This document shows positions 21,856 to 26,936 of a DNA stretch of 64,000 nt, in pieces; the stretch's first letter is position 1, and each line of letters opens with the position of its first letter. The position numbers and the translations under genes are program-made. This DNA comes from an uncultured Caulobacterales bacterium (lineage in GTDB: Bacteria > Pseudomonadota > Alphaproteobacteria > Caulobacterales > Caulobacteraceae), in contig CAIOYC010000009.1 of NCBI GenBank assembly GCA_903862425.1, forward strand, positions 186,001 to 250,000, written 5' to 3'. The notes beneath the pieces were generated by a model that saw nothing but the letters and a program-made list of their open reading frames with translations, did no database searches and had not been told where the DNA came from.

Positions 21856-23055
21856 TTAAGCGATAAGGCCCTGCACCGGCTGGGCTTCGGCGCTGTTGGG
21901 GAAGACCACCGTGTCCAGCCGCCGCCGGTCGATGCCCATGTGGTCGGCGAGCACGCCCTTGAACACGGAGCGTACGTCGAGGGTGGGGGCCAGGTCGCGG
22001 TTCTCGAACAGCTTGGCCTGCTGCAGGGTCGGCCAGTCGCCGACGATGCCGCCGGCCTTCAGCGCCCCGCCCGCCAGCACCATGCACGAGGCGGTGCCGT
22101 GGTCCGTGCCCTTGGTGCCGTTGATGCGGGCGGTGCGGCCGAACTCGGTGGCCATGACCACCACCGTGTCCTTCCACTGCTCGCCCATGCCGCTCTGCAA
22201 TCCGGCGATGACGTTGTCGACCAGCGACAGGCGTCCCGCCAGCTGGCCGTTGTCATTGCCCTGGTTGGCGTGAGTGTCGAACCCATCGAGCGACAGCACG
22301 GCGATGGAGGGGCCGCCAGGCGCGACGAGGAACTTGGCGGCGGTGACGGCGAAGGCCTGCACATCCGCCCCGTTCAAGGGCTTGCCGCCGTTGATCACAT
22401 CCGCCTGGGCCTCGGTCTGCAGGCCGGTGGCGAGGGCCGGGCCGAGGAGGGGATCGCCCGCATAGAGGTCCATCAGGGCGTTGGCCACGCGGTTGGTCTG
22501 GCCGTTCATCCGTCCGCCCGGCGACCAGGACTGGGCCTGGACCGGCCCACGCAGGATCAAGGGCTCCTGCGCGCCGATGGAGAGGGCGGCGATGGTGCGC
22601 CCGGGCTGGGCCGCCTGCAGGGTACGGTTCAGCCAGCCGGTGGTGGAGGTGTAGAGTTGCGCTCCGCCGGTCTCGAGCAGGTCCTGCGCCTCGAAGTGCG
22701 AACGGATGCGCTGGGGAATGGCCACGGCGGGGGCGATGCGCGCCTGGCCGGACTGAACCAGGCCGTGCAGCTTGACGAGCTTGGGGTGCAGGCCGAACTG
22801 GCTGTCCAGCATCAGCACCTTGTCGTTCGGAATGGCGATCTCGCCGCGCAGGGGGATGTAGTCCGGATCGCCCACGGGTGGAGCGAGGGACAGGCCGTCG
22901 CAGGCGCCGCGCTGGATGATCACCACCAGCTTCTTGGCGGCGAAATCCGCCGCCGCCGCGCCGTTGGCCACGCCGAGGAAGGTCGCGCCAACGCCAGCGG
23001 CGAGGGCCGAGGCGATGATGCTGCGGCGGGAGGGGGAGGGGGCAGGTTGCGTCAT
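21856..23055 (-). CDS. DUF1501 family exported protein (sulfatase-like fold)
   Basis: A 399-residue protein beginning with a Tat-like signal (S-R-R-S-I-I-A-S-A-L-A-A-G-V-G near residue 10). The DUF1501 pattern is present: V-I-I-Q-R-G-A-C-D-G-L-S near 50, T-E-F-G-R-T-A-R-I-N-G-T-K-G-T-D-H-G-T-A near 300 and D-V-R-S-V-F-K-G-V-L near 360. DUF1501 proteins are related to alkaline phosphatase/sulfatase folds and almost always sit next to DUF1800 genes, as here (start overlaps the DUF1800 stop in ATGA). Their function is unknown; a periplasmic or surface role is inferred from the Tat signal. Confidence 0.9.
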   Translation of the reverse strand: MTQPAPSPSRRSIIASALAAGVGATFLGVANGAAAADFAAKKLVVIIQRGACDGLSLAPPVGDPDYIPLRGEIAIPNDKVLMLDSQFGLHPKLVKLHGLVQSGQARIAPAVAIPQRIRSHFEAQDLLETGGAQLYTSTTGWLNRTLQAAQPGRTIAALSIGAQEPLILRGPVQAQSWSPGGRMNGQTNRVANALMDLYAGDPLLGPALATGLQTEAQADVINGGKPLNGADVQAFAVTAAKFLVAPGGPSIAVLSLDGFDTHANQGNDNGQLAGRLSLVDNVIAGLQSGMGEQWKDTVVVMATEFGRTARINGTKGTDHGTASCMVLAGGALKAGGIVGDWPTLQQAKLFENRDLAPTLDVRSVFKGVLADHMGIDRRRLDTVVFPNSAEAQPVQGLIA

Positions 23056-24644
23056 CGGCGTTGGAACTCCGGAGACATGAGAAGGAGCGCAAAGGCCTCG
23101 GGTCGGCTTTCGGCGCGGGAAACGGCGAGTTCTGTCTTGGGGGTCAGGCGCGCGCCGAGCACAGCCTTGGCCTCGTCCACCGGCGCGGTCTGAGGCGCGT
23201 TGGCGTTGGCGAAGCCCTGCACCCAGGTGAGGCGCTTGACGATGGCATCGGGCGCGGCCCAGTCCACCGAGACGTCCGACCAGCCGTTGGGCTGCGGCGC
23301 GCCGAACGGACGCATGCCGAGGGAGTTAAGCGGCCCCACCACGTCCCGCGCCGGGTTGGCGGGGGTGAAGTTGGCGGCGCGCCAGCTCGACACCATGAAG
23401 TCATAGGGCGTCTTCAGCTTGCGCGGGGTCGGGTCATAGGCGTCGCGGGAGGTCACAAGGGCCTCGGCCACCTTGCCCAGGTCGCCGTTGGTGCGCGTCC
23501 ACACGTTTTCGAGGCGGGCGACGAGGGCGGGCGGCGGATCGTCGGCGACGAAATGCATGGCGATCTTGTGCGCCATGCGCCGGGCGGTCTGGGGTTTCTG
23601 CGCCAGATCGAGGATCACCTGCGCCGCCTGTTTGCCGCCGTCGTCATTATATTTCTTGCCCATGACCGTGCGTGGGCCCGGCTCGTGGAAGGTGTCGCGA
23701 TAAAGGAAGGCGCCGCCGGGGGCGGGGTCGTTGGGGTTGTTGGCCACAGACCAGCCGGTGAGGGCGCGGGCGAACTCGGTCACGTCGGCCTGGGTATAGC
23801 CCGCATCGGCGCCGACGCTGTGCAGCTCCATGATCTCGCGGCCGAGATTCTCGTTCAGGCCCACCCCGCCCCTGCGACGCGCCGCCGCCTGGCTGTTCGG
23901 TCCGATGGACTGTTGCTGGTCCAGATAGAGGATCATGCCGGGGTGCATGGAAGAGGCCAGGATCAGCTCGGCGAAGCTCTTGAACACATGGGGGCGGATG
24001 GCCTCGCGCTCGAACGGACCGACCGAGACCATGACGTCCTGGTTCTTGGCCGCCACGGTGAAGTGGTTGCACCAGAACAAGGCCCAGCGCTCACGAAACC
24101 CATCGGCGGTCGTGGACGCCAGGCGGGCGCGGGCCAGGGCTTCCTCCGCCGCCAGTTCGTTGATGGGGATGGCCGCGTCGCGTCGCGACATATCGTTGGC
24201 CTTGGCTTCGCGCACGGCCACGCGGTACTCCTGAAAGGTCTTCCAGGACTCCTCCATGCTGGGCAGGGGCCTGCCCGAGCCGAAGTCGGTCTTCGGCGGG
24301 ATCGGCCCCGTGGGCGCGGGGGGCGCCACGGATGCGCCGGCCATGGTTGACGACATACCGGCCTGCGCCATTTGCATCTGGGCATTGGCGACGGCGCCGG
24401 CCGGAACCTGACCCGCGGCGATGGCCGCGCCCGCCATGACCGGGGTGGGCGTCGGCGGCTTGGGCGGGGCGGGCGGCGGCGTGGCGGGAAGCGGAACGGT
24501 GACGGGTTCATCCGCGCCTTCGCGGCGGATCTGCGCCACCAGCCACCCGGCCGGATCGTGGCTCGCCGTATCGATTTCGCCGGGATGGGCGCCGAGGCCG
24601 AACCGCGTCACCGCAATCGCCGCCATAAGGGCCGTGTCGGCCAT
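23052..24644 (-). CDS. DUF1800 family protein
   Basis: The ATG at 24644 has GAGGAG just upstream and gives 530 residues; a longer frame to 24755 lacks support. After an N-terminal segment (V-T-R-F-G-L-G-A-H-P-G-E) comes a Pro/Ala/Met-rich low-complexity stretch at about 50-115. The conserved DUF1800 body follows: F-W-C-N-H-F-T-V, N-E-N-L-G-R-E-I-M-E-L-H-S-V-G, Y-T-Q-A-D-V-T-E-F-A-R-A-L-T-G-W and H-K-I-A-M-H-F-V-A-D-D-P-P. It is the upstream member of a two-gene operon with DUF1501. No clear signal peptide is seen. The function is unknown. Confidence 0.9.
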   Translation of the reverse strand: MADTALMAAIAVTRFGLGAHPGEIDTASHDPAGWLVAQIRREGADEPVTVPLPATPPPAPPKPPTPTPVMAGAAIAAGQVPAGAVANAQMQMAQAGMSSTMAGASVAPPAPTGPIPPKTDFGSGRPLPSMEESWKTFQEYRVAVREAKANDMSRRDAAIPINELAAEEALARARLASTTADGFRERWALFWCNHFTVAAKNQDVMVSVGPFEREAIRPHVFKSFAELILASSMHPGMILYLDQQQSIGPNSQAAARRRGGVGLNENLGREIMELHSVGADAGYTQADVTEFARALTGWSVANNPNDPAPGGAFLYRDTFHEPGPRTVMGKKYNDDGGKQAAQVILDLAQKPQTARRMAHKIAMHFVADDPPPALVARLENVWTRTNGDLGKVAEALVTSRDAYDPTPRKLKTPYDFMVSSWRAANFTPANPARDVVGPLNSLGMRPFGAPQPNGWSDVSVDWAAPDAIVKRLTWVQGFANANAPQTAPVDEAKAVLGARLTPKTELAVSRAESRPEAFALLLMSPEFQRR

Positions 24645-24732
24645 GGTTTGCTCCTCGCCTCGTCGCCCGACCGCCCTTACATAACGCGCTCGGCCCCCTC
24701 TTCCGTCGCAACCGGGATACAAAGTTTCAAAC

Positions 24733-25458
24733 ATGGCGCTTACGGACGCAGACAAGCTGATGCGGGTCCGCCGCTTCTATAAGGCGGCGGCGGCAGGCCC
24801 GGTGGAGGGTGGCCACGCCATCCTGCTCGATGGCCGGCCGGCCAAGACGGCCGGCGGCGGCAAGCTGATCACACCCACGTCGGACCTGGCCGAGGTGCTG
24901 ACGGGTGAGTGGGCCGCCCAGGCCGAGTTCATCGATTTCTCCTACATGCCCGCCACGCGCCTCGCCTTTACCGCCATCGACCGGGGCGGAGAGGCGCATG
25001 CCGGGCTGGCCAAGGAAGCGGCGCGCTATGCCGGGTCGGACACGCTCTGCTATCCCGCGATCTCGCCCACGCCCCTGCTGCGCCGCCAGGACGCCCTTTG
25101 GACGCCGTGGCGCGACTGGGCGGAGCGCGAGCTTGGGCTGAGGTTTCAGACCGCCGGAGAGGCGCTGCATGTCAGCCAGCCGCCCGAGACGCTGGCGGGG
25201 GTGGAGCGGATCTCCGACGCCTTGGACGACTTCTCCCTCGCCGGCCTCGTCTTGGCCTGTGGTCTCTATGGCTCGGCCATCCTGGCCCTTGCGGTGCAGC
25301 GGCGCGCCCTGGACGCCGTCGAGGCCTTCGACCTGTCGCGGCTGGAGGAGGCGTTTCAGGCCGAGCAGTGGGGTCTCGACGCCGAGGCGGAGGCCCGCAC
25401 CGAAGCCCTGCGCGAGGAAGCCGCCATGCTGGAACGATGGTTCGCGGCCCTGGCTTGA
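24733..25458 (+). CDS. ATP12-family F1-ATPase assembly chaperone
   Basis: A 241-residue protein matching the ATP12 family of alphaproteobacteria and mitochondria: R-F-Y-K-A-A near residue 13, L-D-G-R-P-A-K-T near 35, E-W-A-A-Q near 60, T-R-L-A-F-T-A-I-D near 78 and the C-terminal W-G-L-D-A-E-A-E. ATP12 binds the F1 alpha subunit during ATP synthase assembly. The ATG at 24733 fits the family's N-terminus. It is divergent from the DUF1800 operon and lies in a block I recall as crcB-rluC-(HAD)-ATP12-pccB in other alphaproteobacteria. Confidence 0.9.
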   Translation: MALTDADKLMRVRRFYKAAAAGPVEGGHAILLDGRPAKTAGGGKLITPTSDLAEVLTGEWAAQAEFIDFSYMPATRLAFTAIDRGGEAHAGLAKEAARYAGSDTLCYPAISPTPLLRRQDALWTPWRDWAERELGLRFQTAGEALHVSQPPETLAGVERISDALDDFSLAGLVLACGLYGSAILALAVQRRALDAVEAFDLSRLEEAFQAEQWGLDAEAEARTEALREEAAMLERWFAALA

Positions 25459-25463
25459 GCTAG

Positions 25464-25482
25464 ACTTTCCAAACAGGAAAGT
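25464..25482. promoter_or_regulatory. Tandem palindromic operator, site 1
   Basis: ACTTTCC-N5-GGAAAGT, perfect 7-bp arms with a 5-nt spacer (19 bp). It is the first and best of three sites upstream of the membrane-protein/winged-helix gene pair. Confidence 0.7.
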
Positions 25483-25486
25483 TATC

Positions 25487-25505
25487 ACTTGCCGTTCTGG
25501 AAAGT
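25487..25505. promoter_or_regulatory. Tandem palindromic operator, site 2
   Basis: ACTTGCC-N5-GGAAAGT, the same 19-bp architecture with one mismatch in the left arm. Its start is 23 bp from the start of site 1. Confidence 0.6.
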
Positions 25506-25512
25506 CGTGATA

Positions 25513-25531
25513 GCTTTCCAATATGGAAAGT
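25513..25531. promoter_or_regulatory. Tandem palindromic operator, site 3
   Basis: GCTTTCC-N5-GGAAAGT, differing from site 1 only in the outermost base. It starts 26 bp after site 2 and ends directly before the GGAG ribosome-binding site of the membrane-protein gene, so binding here would block promoter and translation start. Confidence 0.68.
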
Positions 25532-25542
25532 GGAGATCGGCC

Positions 25543-26187
25543 ATGAGCGATCATTATGAATTCAACCCCTCGGACGCCCTCAGCGCCGTCCATGGCGCGC
25601 GCGCCGATCTCGCGGCGCGGCTGGACGAGGGGTCATGGAGCTATGACCTGATCTATTCGGCCCTCGCGGGGGTAATCGTCGGCGGCCAGGCCCTGCCCTG
25701 GGGTTGGAACCTTGCGGCCTCGCTCGGCGGCGCTGCGGCCCTGGGGCTGCTGGCGCGGGACTGGTCGCGGCGCAAGGGCGTTTGGGTCTGCGGGGTGACG
25801 CCGAGGCGCGCGCGCTGGGTCTCCCTCGGGCTCGGTGTGGGGATCGCCGCCGTTTCGGGCGTGGTCTTCCTCATGACCTACAATGGCGGATCGCGCTGGA
25901 TCGCTTTGCCGGCGGCGCTGGCGGCGGCCATAATCGCCCTCATCGGCTCACGCCTGTGGCGGCGGGTGTTCAAGCTCGACCTGGCGGAGGATTTCGGCCC
26001 GTCGTCCATATCCTACGGACTGGTCCTGCTGCTGGGCGCGGCCGGACTCGCCGGGTCGGGTCTCGCGCACCTCATGGGCGCTCAGGAAATGCTGGTGGCA
26101 TGGCTGCTCGGCGCGGGGCTGGGTATAAGCGCGGTGGCGGGGGCGATGATGCTGCGCCGAGCCTTGCGGGCTGGAGCGGCGCATTGA
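25543..26187 (+). CDS. Multi-pass membrane protein paired with a winged-helix regulator
   Basis: The ATG at 25543 follows GGAG at 25532-25535; an earlier start at 25489 would lie within the operators. The 214-residue product has a soluble N-terminus (about 40 residues, Asp/Ala-rich) and about six hydrophobic segments in three pairs (near 45-75, 95-135 and 160-205). No catalytic motif is recognisable. Such proteins often accompany a small winged-helix repressor. Its stop overlaps the regulator's TTG start (TTGA). It may be a membrane sensor or stress protein; I cannot say which. Confidence 0.75.
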   Translation: MSDHYEFNPSDALSAVHGARADLAARLDEGSWSYDLIYSALAGVIVGGQALPWGWNLAASLGGAAALGLLARDWSRRKGVWVCGVTPRRARWVSLGLGVGIAAVSGVVFLMTYNGGSRWIALPAALAAAIIALIGSRLWRRVFKLDLAEDFGPSSISYGLVLLLGAAGLAGSGLAHLMGAQEMLVAWLLGAGLGISAVAGAMMLRRALRAGAAH

Positions 26188-26489
26188 TCGCCGTCCCGCA
26201 GTTCGACGCGGCGATCCACGCCCCCGGTCGGCTGCAGATCTGCGCCCTGCTGTCCGCGTCCGACCAGGTGGAGTTCGCCACCCTGCGCGAGGCGATCGGC
26301 GTGTCCGACTCGGTGCTCTCCAAGCATCTCAAGCTCTTGGAAGAGGCGGGCTATGTGCGGCCGCGCAAGGCCACGTCCGAGGGACGTCAGCGCACCTGGC
26401 TCAGCCTGACCACCGAGGGGCGGCGCGCCTTCGCCGCCCACGTGGCGGAGTTGACGCGCCTGGCCGGCCTGACGCGGGCAGCGGAATAG
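26184..26489 (+). CDS. Small winged-helix (MarR/ArsR-like) regulator
   Basis: A TTG start at 26184 overlaps the membrane-protein stop. The 101-residue protein reads L-Q-I-C-A-L-L-S-A-S near residue 17, then a helix-turn-helix (F-A-T-L-R-E-A-I-G-V-S-D-S-V-L-S-K-H-L-K) and a wing (R-P-R-K-A-T-S-E-G-R-Q-R-T-W-L). It matches the compact winged-helix DNA-binding type (HTH_34-like) that dimerises through its C-terminal helix. The three palindromes at 25464-25531 are its likely binding sites, giving autoregulation (inference). It ends back-to-back with the stop of the gene on the other strand (TAGCTA). Confidence 0.85.
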   Translation: MIAVPQFDAAIHAPGRLQICALLSASDQVEFATLREAIGVSDSVLSKHLKLLEEAGYVRPRKATSEGRQRTWLSLTTEGRRAFAAHVAELTRLAGLTRAAE

Positions 26490-26936
26490 CTAGGCCGCGA
26501 CCGGGTTGAACCACAGGGTCTGAATCTTGCCGGCGGGGCCGAAGCCGATCATCAGGTCGGCCTGACCGTTGGCGAACTGGCCGCGGTACTTCCACACGCC
26601 AGCAGGCGTATAGCCGCGATATTCCAGGCTCTTCAGCGCCCCGAGGCCGTTCAGCGTGCCGGCGACCACATCGCTCTTGGCCTTCACCGCATCGACGATG
26701 GCGCCTTCCATGTCGTCATAATTGGGCTTGCCCGACTCGAAGGCGGCGATGGTGGTGGTGAGAGCGGTTTCCGCCTTCTGCTCCTCGCCCGCAGGAGGGA
26801 CGGGCATCTGCACCACATCGCCGGGCTTGGGGCCGACGGCGGGGTTCACGCCCCGCGGCGGCGTGGTTTGTGCGGCGGCGGTAGTCAAAGGCGCAAGGCT
26901 CAGGACGGCGGCGGCGATGAGGGTATGGACTTTCAT
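26490..26936 (-). CDS. Small exported protein of unknown function
   Basis: A 148-residue protein with a clear Sec signal peptide (M-K-V-H-T-L-I, Ala-rich core, cleavage after T-A-A-A-Q near 23). The mature part has a Pro-rich segment (P-P-R-G-V-N-P-A-V-G-P-K-P-G-D), a helical middle near 55-95, and a beta-rich C-terminus with Y-R-G-Y-T-P-A-G-V-W-K-Y-R-G-Q-F-A-N-G. The C-terminal pattern resembles small periplasmic lumenal domains related to DUF3887-type proteins, but I am not certain. It stands alone, converging with the regulator gene. Confidence 0.7.
   Translation of the reverse strand: MKVHTLIAAAVLSLAPLTTAAAQTTPPRGVNPAVGPKPGDVVQMPVPPAGEEQKAETALTTTIAAFESGKPNYDDMEGAIVDAVKAKSDVVAGTLNGLGALKSLEYRGYTPAGVWKYRGQFANGQADLMIGFGPAGKIQTLWFNPVAA

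Follow-up and report, generated by a model that had tools for sequence, protein, structure and literature searches.

What controls the pair of overlapping genes that follows three tandem palindromes in the genome of an uncultured Caulobacterales bacterium? The initial annotation proposed that the small winged-helix protein encoded by the second gene binds all three sites and controls its own operon, with the membrane protein encoded by the first gene as sensor or target. We examined the locus within a 64,000-nucleotide stretch of contig CAIOYC010000009.1 (“the window”) and compared it with its counterparts in other genomes. The relevant features of the window are as follows.

24733-25458: ATP12 chaperone gene (Pfam ATP12), the upstream neighbor
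25464..25482, + strand: O1, ACTTTCC-N5-GGAAAGT with no mismatch (sequence, shuffles, family conservation)
25487..25505, + strand: O2, left arm ACTTGCC (T5 to G, one mismatch), right arm perfect (sequence, family matrices)
25489..25494, + strand: putative -35 box TTGCCG within O2 (family hexamer counts)
25511..25516, + strand: putative -10 box TAGCTT after a 16-nt spacer, overlapping the first bases of O3 (best of five spacings)
25513..25531, + strand: O3, one mismatch (A1 to G) (sequence, family matrices)
25532..25535, + strand: GGAG, the probable ribosome-binding site, adjoining the end of O3 (sequence)
25543..26187, + strand: membrane protein P0001, 214 aa, with an N-terminal helix, a conserved four-helix membrane core, and two extra helices (ATG start, alignment, model)
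26184..26489, + strand: HTH_34 winged-helix regulator P0002, 101 aa, with a TTG start overlapping the previous stop (profile, model, aligned starts)

Three palindromes precede the gene pair

The sequence bears out the three ACTTTCC-N5-GGAAAGT palindromes that had been described, each with at most one mismatch and with starts 23 and 26 bp apart. At this stringency the window contains three matches only, which are O1, O2, and O3, and none of 100 dinucleotide shuffles yielded any; at up to three mismatches, there were four matches versus 0.81 expected. Together the palindromes occupy most of the 84-nt gap between the ATP12 chaperone gene and the membrane gene and, as had also been noted, they end directly before the ribosome-binding site, with O3 closing at 25531 and the GGAG beginning at 25532. 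A chance origin of the palindromes was rejected on the basis of both the shuffles and the conservation described below.

When the host genome (G000, 3.69 Mb) was scanned with a slightly wider pattern at one mismatch or fewer, the places of O1 to O3 were recovered and no fourth. The reversed control pattern gave five and three matches in the same scan, so the weight of the argument rests on the clustering and conservation of the sites rather than on the genome count. We also considered, and rejected, a larger regulon in the host: at up to two mismatches three further places appeared, but the reversed control returned 12 matches per strand versus 6. One of these places (L005) lies near the start of an open reading frame that we take to be integrase-like. 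In the same locus (L005 3993-5655, on G000:C30), a frame with a CxxxCxxC motif, presumably a radical-SAM enzyme, is next to a short one rich in cysteine, and the two perhaps represent a modified-peptide cluster.

Two further observations concern the surroundings of the pair in the window. Downstream, a convergent 148-aa reading frame (26490-26936) has a signal-like start and no Pfam family, and no relative of it was found at E 1e-8 in the examined stretches of 81 other loci. Upstream, two overlapping reverse-strand frames (21856-24755) have the appearance of what we take to be a DUF1501/DUF1800 pair.

The sites accompany the regulator across the Caulobacteraceae

A search for the regulator in 299 genomes of the family, which coinciding named loci indicate to be Caulobacteraceae, yielded 75 orthologs scoring at least 95 bits, the next best match reaching 66 bits. 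The initial annotation had set a search for the motif upstream of homologous pairs as a refuting test; at least two sites (three or fewer mismatches each) were present upstream in all 75 ortholog loci, while among 11 paralog loci one had a single weak site. A full triple, defined as three sites of four or fewer mismatches each with O1 and O2 exactly 23 bp apart, was found in 68 of the 75. Of the remaining seven loci, which were excluded from the site matrices, six are without O1 and one is without O3. Over the 68 distinct triples, the core reads ACTTTCCR-N3-YGGAAAGT, and O1 is the most perfect site (41/68 without mismatch). The 42-nt block comprising O1 and O2 averages 78% identity between loci versus 31% for the 42 nt just upstream.

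The geometry of the sites is conserved unevenly. The O1-O2 spacing is 23 bp wherever both sites were found, even in a free search that fixed no spacing, whereas the O2-O3 spacing ranges from 25 to 32 across loci, suggesting that O1 and O2 may be the cooperative pair.

The exact palindrome occurs in 53 of the 299 family genomes and the reversed control pattern in 4, by our own reading of the table. Genomes with the ortholog carry an exact site in 52 of 75 cases, versus 1 of 224 for those without it (Fisher p 9e-39, a value that ignores shared ancestry). In the sole genome that has an exact site and no ortholog (G120), the site triple is cut by the end of the contig. In 51 of the 53 genomes, the ortholog is preceded by an exact site at a distance of 2 kb or less; the exceptions are G120 and G294. 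In the latter (L195), a lone exact site is located away from the pair, between two frames.

The operator extends to distant relatives and plasmids

Sites were present in 34 of 37 named relatives, a set that partly repeats the 299 genomes (e.g., L154 and L088) and so is not independent of them; the three loci without sites (L152, L156, and L161) have sequence that starts less than 450 nt before the regulator. The site-bearing relatives include Brevundimonas, Caulobacter, Erythrobacter, and Aurantiacibacter, as well as the actinomycetes Modestobacter, Geodermatophilus, Glycomyces, and Motilibacter, and Sphingomonadales and Actinomycetota whose regulators are 59-69% identical have the same operator. 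Among plasmids there were 29 matches to the regulator; nine of the 14 loci opened have an ACTTTCC-type site (two or fewer mismatches) and five have none. Several actinobacterial plasmid loci bear one site only, which, together with the 7 of 75 family loci lacking O1 or O3, argues that three sites are not essential. In the plasmid locus of Thermomicrobium roseum (L171), a perfect 23-bp palindrome, AGTACTTTG-N5-CAAAGTACT, stands ahead of the pair, with ABC transporter genes after it.

Across 385 genomes of the class, five have the regulator (E 1e-14), indicating that the module is patchy in its distribution; two of these lie outside the family, and both have sites.

O2 and O3 coincide with a likely promoter

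In the 68 family triples, position 5 is G in every O2 and T in every O1 and every O3. The O2 hexamer is TTGCCA in 33 triples, TTGACG in 24, TTGCCG in 8, and another sequence in 3, with TTG(A/C)C in 66 of the 68; by the sigma-70 type consensus, we take it to be a -35 promoter element. As the loss of symmetry is fixed in one arm of O2, the mismatch in the middle site is best explained as a second duty of that arm, i.e., a putative -35 box, and not as noise. A -10-like hexamer follows 16-19 nt after the -35 and, in most loci, overlaps the start of O3, although the evidence for it is weaker than for the -35, since it was selected from five spacings as the best. We infer that the promoter is placed at O2 and O3, where, with O2 over the likely -35 and O3 over the likely -10, RNA polymerase and the regulator would compete.

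The window also has an ATG inside O3, roughly at the expected transcription start, that opens a seven-codon frame (25523-25546) ending in the start of the membrane gene (ATGA). Of the 29 family loci with an ATG at this spot, 25 have it in the reading frame of the membrane gene, suggesting that leaderless starts within the operator may be usual; several actinomycete loci appear to use it as their main start.

The second gene encodes an HTH_34 winged-helix protein

The description of the second gene as a small winged-helix protein overlapping the first by TTGA holds, both in its coordinates (the overlap is at 26184) and in its profile: P0002 scores 84.5 bits against Pfam HTH_34 (PF13601; cut-off 27), with residues 16-93 aligned to positions 2-79 of 80. 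Its AlphaFold2 model (pLDDT 92) has a winged-helix fold, and its TTG start agrees with the aligned starts of its relatives. The best PDB profile match is 1ub9 (E 3.7e-5), to which the model also superimposes (Z 15.4, rmsd 2.4, 97 residues), with MarR-type repressors ranking below (Z about 12-13.6). In 22 aligned relatives, the regulator is 59-76% identical to that of the window, and V40-S41, S43-V44, and S46-K47, in and around the recognition helix, are invariant (one row of this alignment, L130, begins one residue late). An in-frame overlap of ATGA, GTGA, or TTGA joins the membrane gene to the regulator gene in 70 of the 75 loci, the others being L061, L077, L081, L082, and L094.

Some paralogs combine a different recognition helix with a related operator

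More distant HTH_34 proteins, 37-48% identical, differ in the recognition helix, where SDSVLS is replaced by TDGNLS or a close variant. Upstream of 15 of 33 such paralogs, we found ACTTT-N7-AAAGT, which is 2 bp shorter than the operator, its exact form being absent from the other 18; the seven other gap lengths (4-6 and 8-11) gave no case in the same 33 loci. A membrane gene directly precedes the paralog in 7 of 9 loci that were read and in 25 of 31 by automatic pick, and four loci without a membrane gene in front (L115-L118) have no ACTTT-N7-AAAGT upstream either. The host itself has a second HTH_34 gene (L124, G000:C25:31168-35907), likewise located after a membrane gene and with the palindrome ACTTTACATCACAAAGT (G000:C25:33454-33470) upstream. 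A longer paralog-operator pattern has one exact match in the host genome, at this paralog, and one more with a mismatch elsewhere.

Since operator and recognition helix change together, these comparisons point to the HTH_34 protein as the binder, and the paralog palindrome ties the operator to the HTH_34 regulator family. A wider reading, about which we are somewhat more doubtful than convinced, is that HTH_34 proteins and the small membrane proteins preceding them constitute a widespread, undescribed class of membrane-to-DNA switch, in which a diffusible winged-helix autorepressor would be checked by a compact four-helix sensor without an outer domain. At least two branches would make up this class, and each would have a membrane partner and an ACTTT/AAAGT palindrome of its own (either 19 bp long, with CC/GG inside, or 17 bp long, with A or G inside), consistent with recognition helix and operator having changed together.

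The membrane protein is compact and diverges rapidly

The alignment of 30 members shows a common plan of an N-terminal helix, four membrane helices, and a charged tail. The loop between helices 2 and 3 is positively charged (5.0 K+R per sequence), and no other segment of the shared part is as well conserved; on the opposite side of the membrane, the loops have about 4 residues. By the positive-inside rule, the charged loop and the tail would face the cytosol. P0001 has no outer domain of an obvious ligand-binding kind, which counts against the sensor reading, and its two extra helices (residues 151-214, 25993-26184; low model confidence) are absent from the other 29 aligned homologs.

P0001 matched no Pfam family, and its 29 homologs gave scattered weak matches, each in one or two of the 30 members. 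A PDB profile search returned matches at E 0.16 and worse only, and Foldseek against the PDB none with an E-value of 0.001 or lower. Such weak or absent matches are no proof that the fold is new. The membrane protein is directly in front of the regulator in nearly all loci inspected, although the automatic pick of its frame was wrong or shortened in some (e.g., L056, L067, L139, L145, L146, L155, L077, and L081), making the lengths there unusable. In L056 and in L067/L139, the latter two probably one genome, the membrane gene is tandemly duplicated behind one operator set. A role for P0001 as a small sensor or tether acting from the inner face is plausible, as had been supposed when it was named as sensor or target; it could equally be an output.

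A probable self-repressing switch and its alternatives

That the regulator controls its own operon, as initially proposed, is strongly supported by comparison: sites precede all 75 orthologs, the operator recurs across two phyla, and related operators precede 15 of 33 paralogs. Autorepression is the best reading of this arrangement, repression rather than activation and binding as a dimer being what we infer from it. We consider it fairly probable that the locus is a negatively autoregulated two-gene module whose repressor is held or released by the membrane protein. A P0002 dimer would bind all three palindromes; binding at O2 (-35) and O3 (-10) would shut off both genes and hold them at a low level, and O1 would increase occupancy, its distance of 23 bp upstream of O2 being constant and equal to about two helical turns. 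Translation of the regulator would be coupled to that of the membrane protein through the four-base overlap. The membrane protein, through its conserved inner face, would then hold or release the repressor, such that a change at the membrane might lift repression in the manner of SdpI and SdpR.

Four other explanations were weighed against this one. The operon may be autorepressed with the winged-helix protein itself sensing the signal, and with the membrane protein, sometimes joined by a CPBP protease, a TraB-like protein, or an ABC transporter, as the output that protects or remodels the membrane. MarR-like folds, such as that of this regulator, often bind ligands. Further, extra genes lie behind the same operator in some loci: an Rce1-like CPBP-type protein comes first in L103 (62 bits) and, by likeness only, in L110, a TraB/GumN protein comes first in L112, and in the Streptomyces locus L170 a group of genes opening with an ABC transporter ATPase and closing with the pair lies downstream of a single site. 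On a Sphingomonas plasmid, a CPBP gene is divergent from the pair, with the sites in the gap between. Such loci hint at membrane stress or immunity, and in L103, L110, and L112, where another gene is first in the operon, the membrane protein may not be the main controlled product. However, the regulators, at about 95-100 residues, contain little beyond the winged helix and one last helix, and the membrane gene nearly always precedes the regulator, extra genes being found in three loci. We regard a sensing regulator as unlikely, though more probable than the other three alternatives.

Less likely still is a toxin-antitoxin-like or immunity-like module, in which the membrane protein is harmful or protective and its winged-helix partner both represses and neutralizes it. 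Two overlapping genes, multiple operators, occurrence on plasmids, and a patchy distribution (5/385 class genomes; 75/299 family genomes) would all suit such a module, as would a membrane partner that diverges much faster than the regulator (18-39% versus 59-76% identity to the proteins of the window). Conversely, the core topology of the membrane protein is conserved, its tandem duplicates would be odd for a toxin, and two chromosomal neighbors are recurrent, ATP12 in 21 and PccB in 20 of 81 loci.

It is very improbable that P0002 activates the operon from O1. In favor of this reading, O1 matches the palindrome best of the three sites and keeps a fixed distance upstream of the promoter; against it, the likely -35 and -10 fall under O2 and O3, and loci without O1 keep O2 and O3 (six of the seven exceptions). 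Least credible is that the sites belong to another transcription factor, with P0002 merely one of its regulated genes, given the near-perfect co-occurrence of sites with the ortholog and a paralog operator that shifts in step with the recognition helix.

The switch that we favor, autorepression with the membrane protein holding or releasing the repressor, can be approached directly: its short and strict operator precedes the pair in 51 of the 53 genomes in which it occurs exactly, so binding, repression, and release are all testable. If the membrane protein does release the repressor, the pair would constitute a minimal transmembrane switch common to two phyla.

Comparison with known systems

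Autorepressed winged-helix operons are common, and the MarR and ArsR autorepressors likewise have a winged helix and palindromic operators that cover the operon's own promoter. P0002 differs from MarR in being shorter and scores below the MarR cut-offs (MarR, 18.7 of 24.6 bits; MarR_2, 25.9 of 27) and below that of the ArsR/SmtB metalloregulators (NF033788, 40.3 of 55), but it exceeds those of Pfam HTH_5 (28.7 of 22) and, narrowly, HTH_20 (28.8 of 27). Its closest structural counterpart, PH1061 of Pyrococcus horikoshii (1ub9), shares the fold; this entry is titled a regulator homologue only and gives no operator or partner.

The initial annotation knew the operator from no described system, and we likewise found no description of it among the matches listed from open-licence papers, a result that does not establish its absence from print. 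The strings ACTTTCC or GGAAAGT do occur in papers, for instance in one on IolQ of B. subtilis (PMC5504672), and the passages on CrtR have no bearing on this operator (PMC7432914). Open-licence papers gave no match to HTH_34 or PF13601, by accession or name, and the matches listed for the operator contained no account of the regulation of this family.

The nearest functional parallel is sdpRI of Bacillus subtilis, in which SdpI responds to the toxin SdpC by holding SdpR at the membrane (PMC1626106). That operon unites an autorepressor and a polytopic membrane protein in two genes, and the locus studied here would do likewise with its putative autorepressor, in agreement with the operators over its likely promoter and the gene overlap in 70 of 75 loci. 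In contrast to sdpRI, taking its order as the operon name gives it, gene order is reversed here, and no toxin gene was recognized next to the pair. By the tests made, P0002 and P0001 are not relatives of SdpR and SdpI: P0002 scores 18.1 bits against the SdpR autorepressor family (NF033789; cut-off 100), and the 20 families to which one or more of the 30 membrane proteins gave a match at E 0.1 do not include SdpI. That P0001 would release its repressor as SdpI does is an argument by analogy. Set beside these systems, the locus suggests a little-studied but orthodox self-repressing switch, ordinary in kind and new in its parts: it offers an operator code for the Pfam family HTH_34, along with a family of partner membrane proteins for which Pfam has no model.
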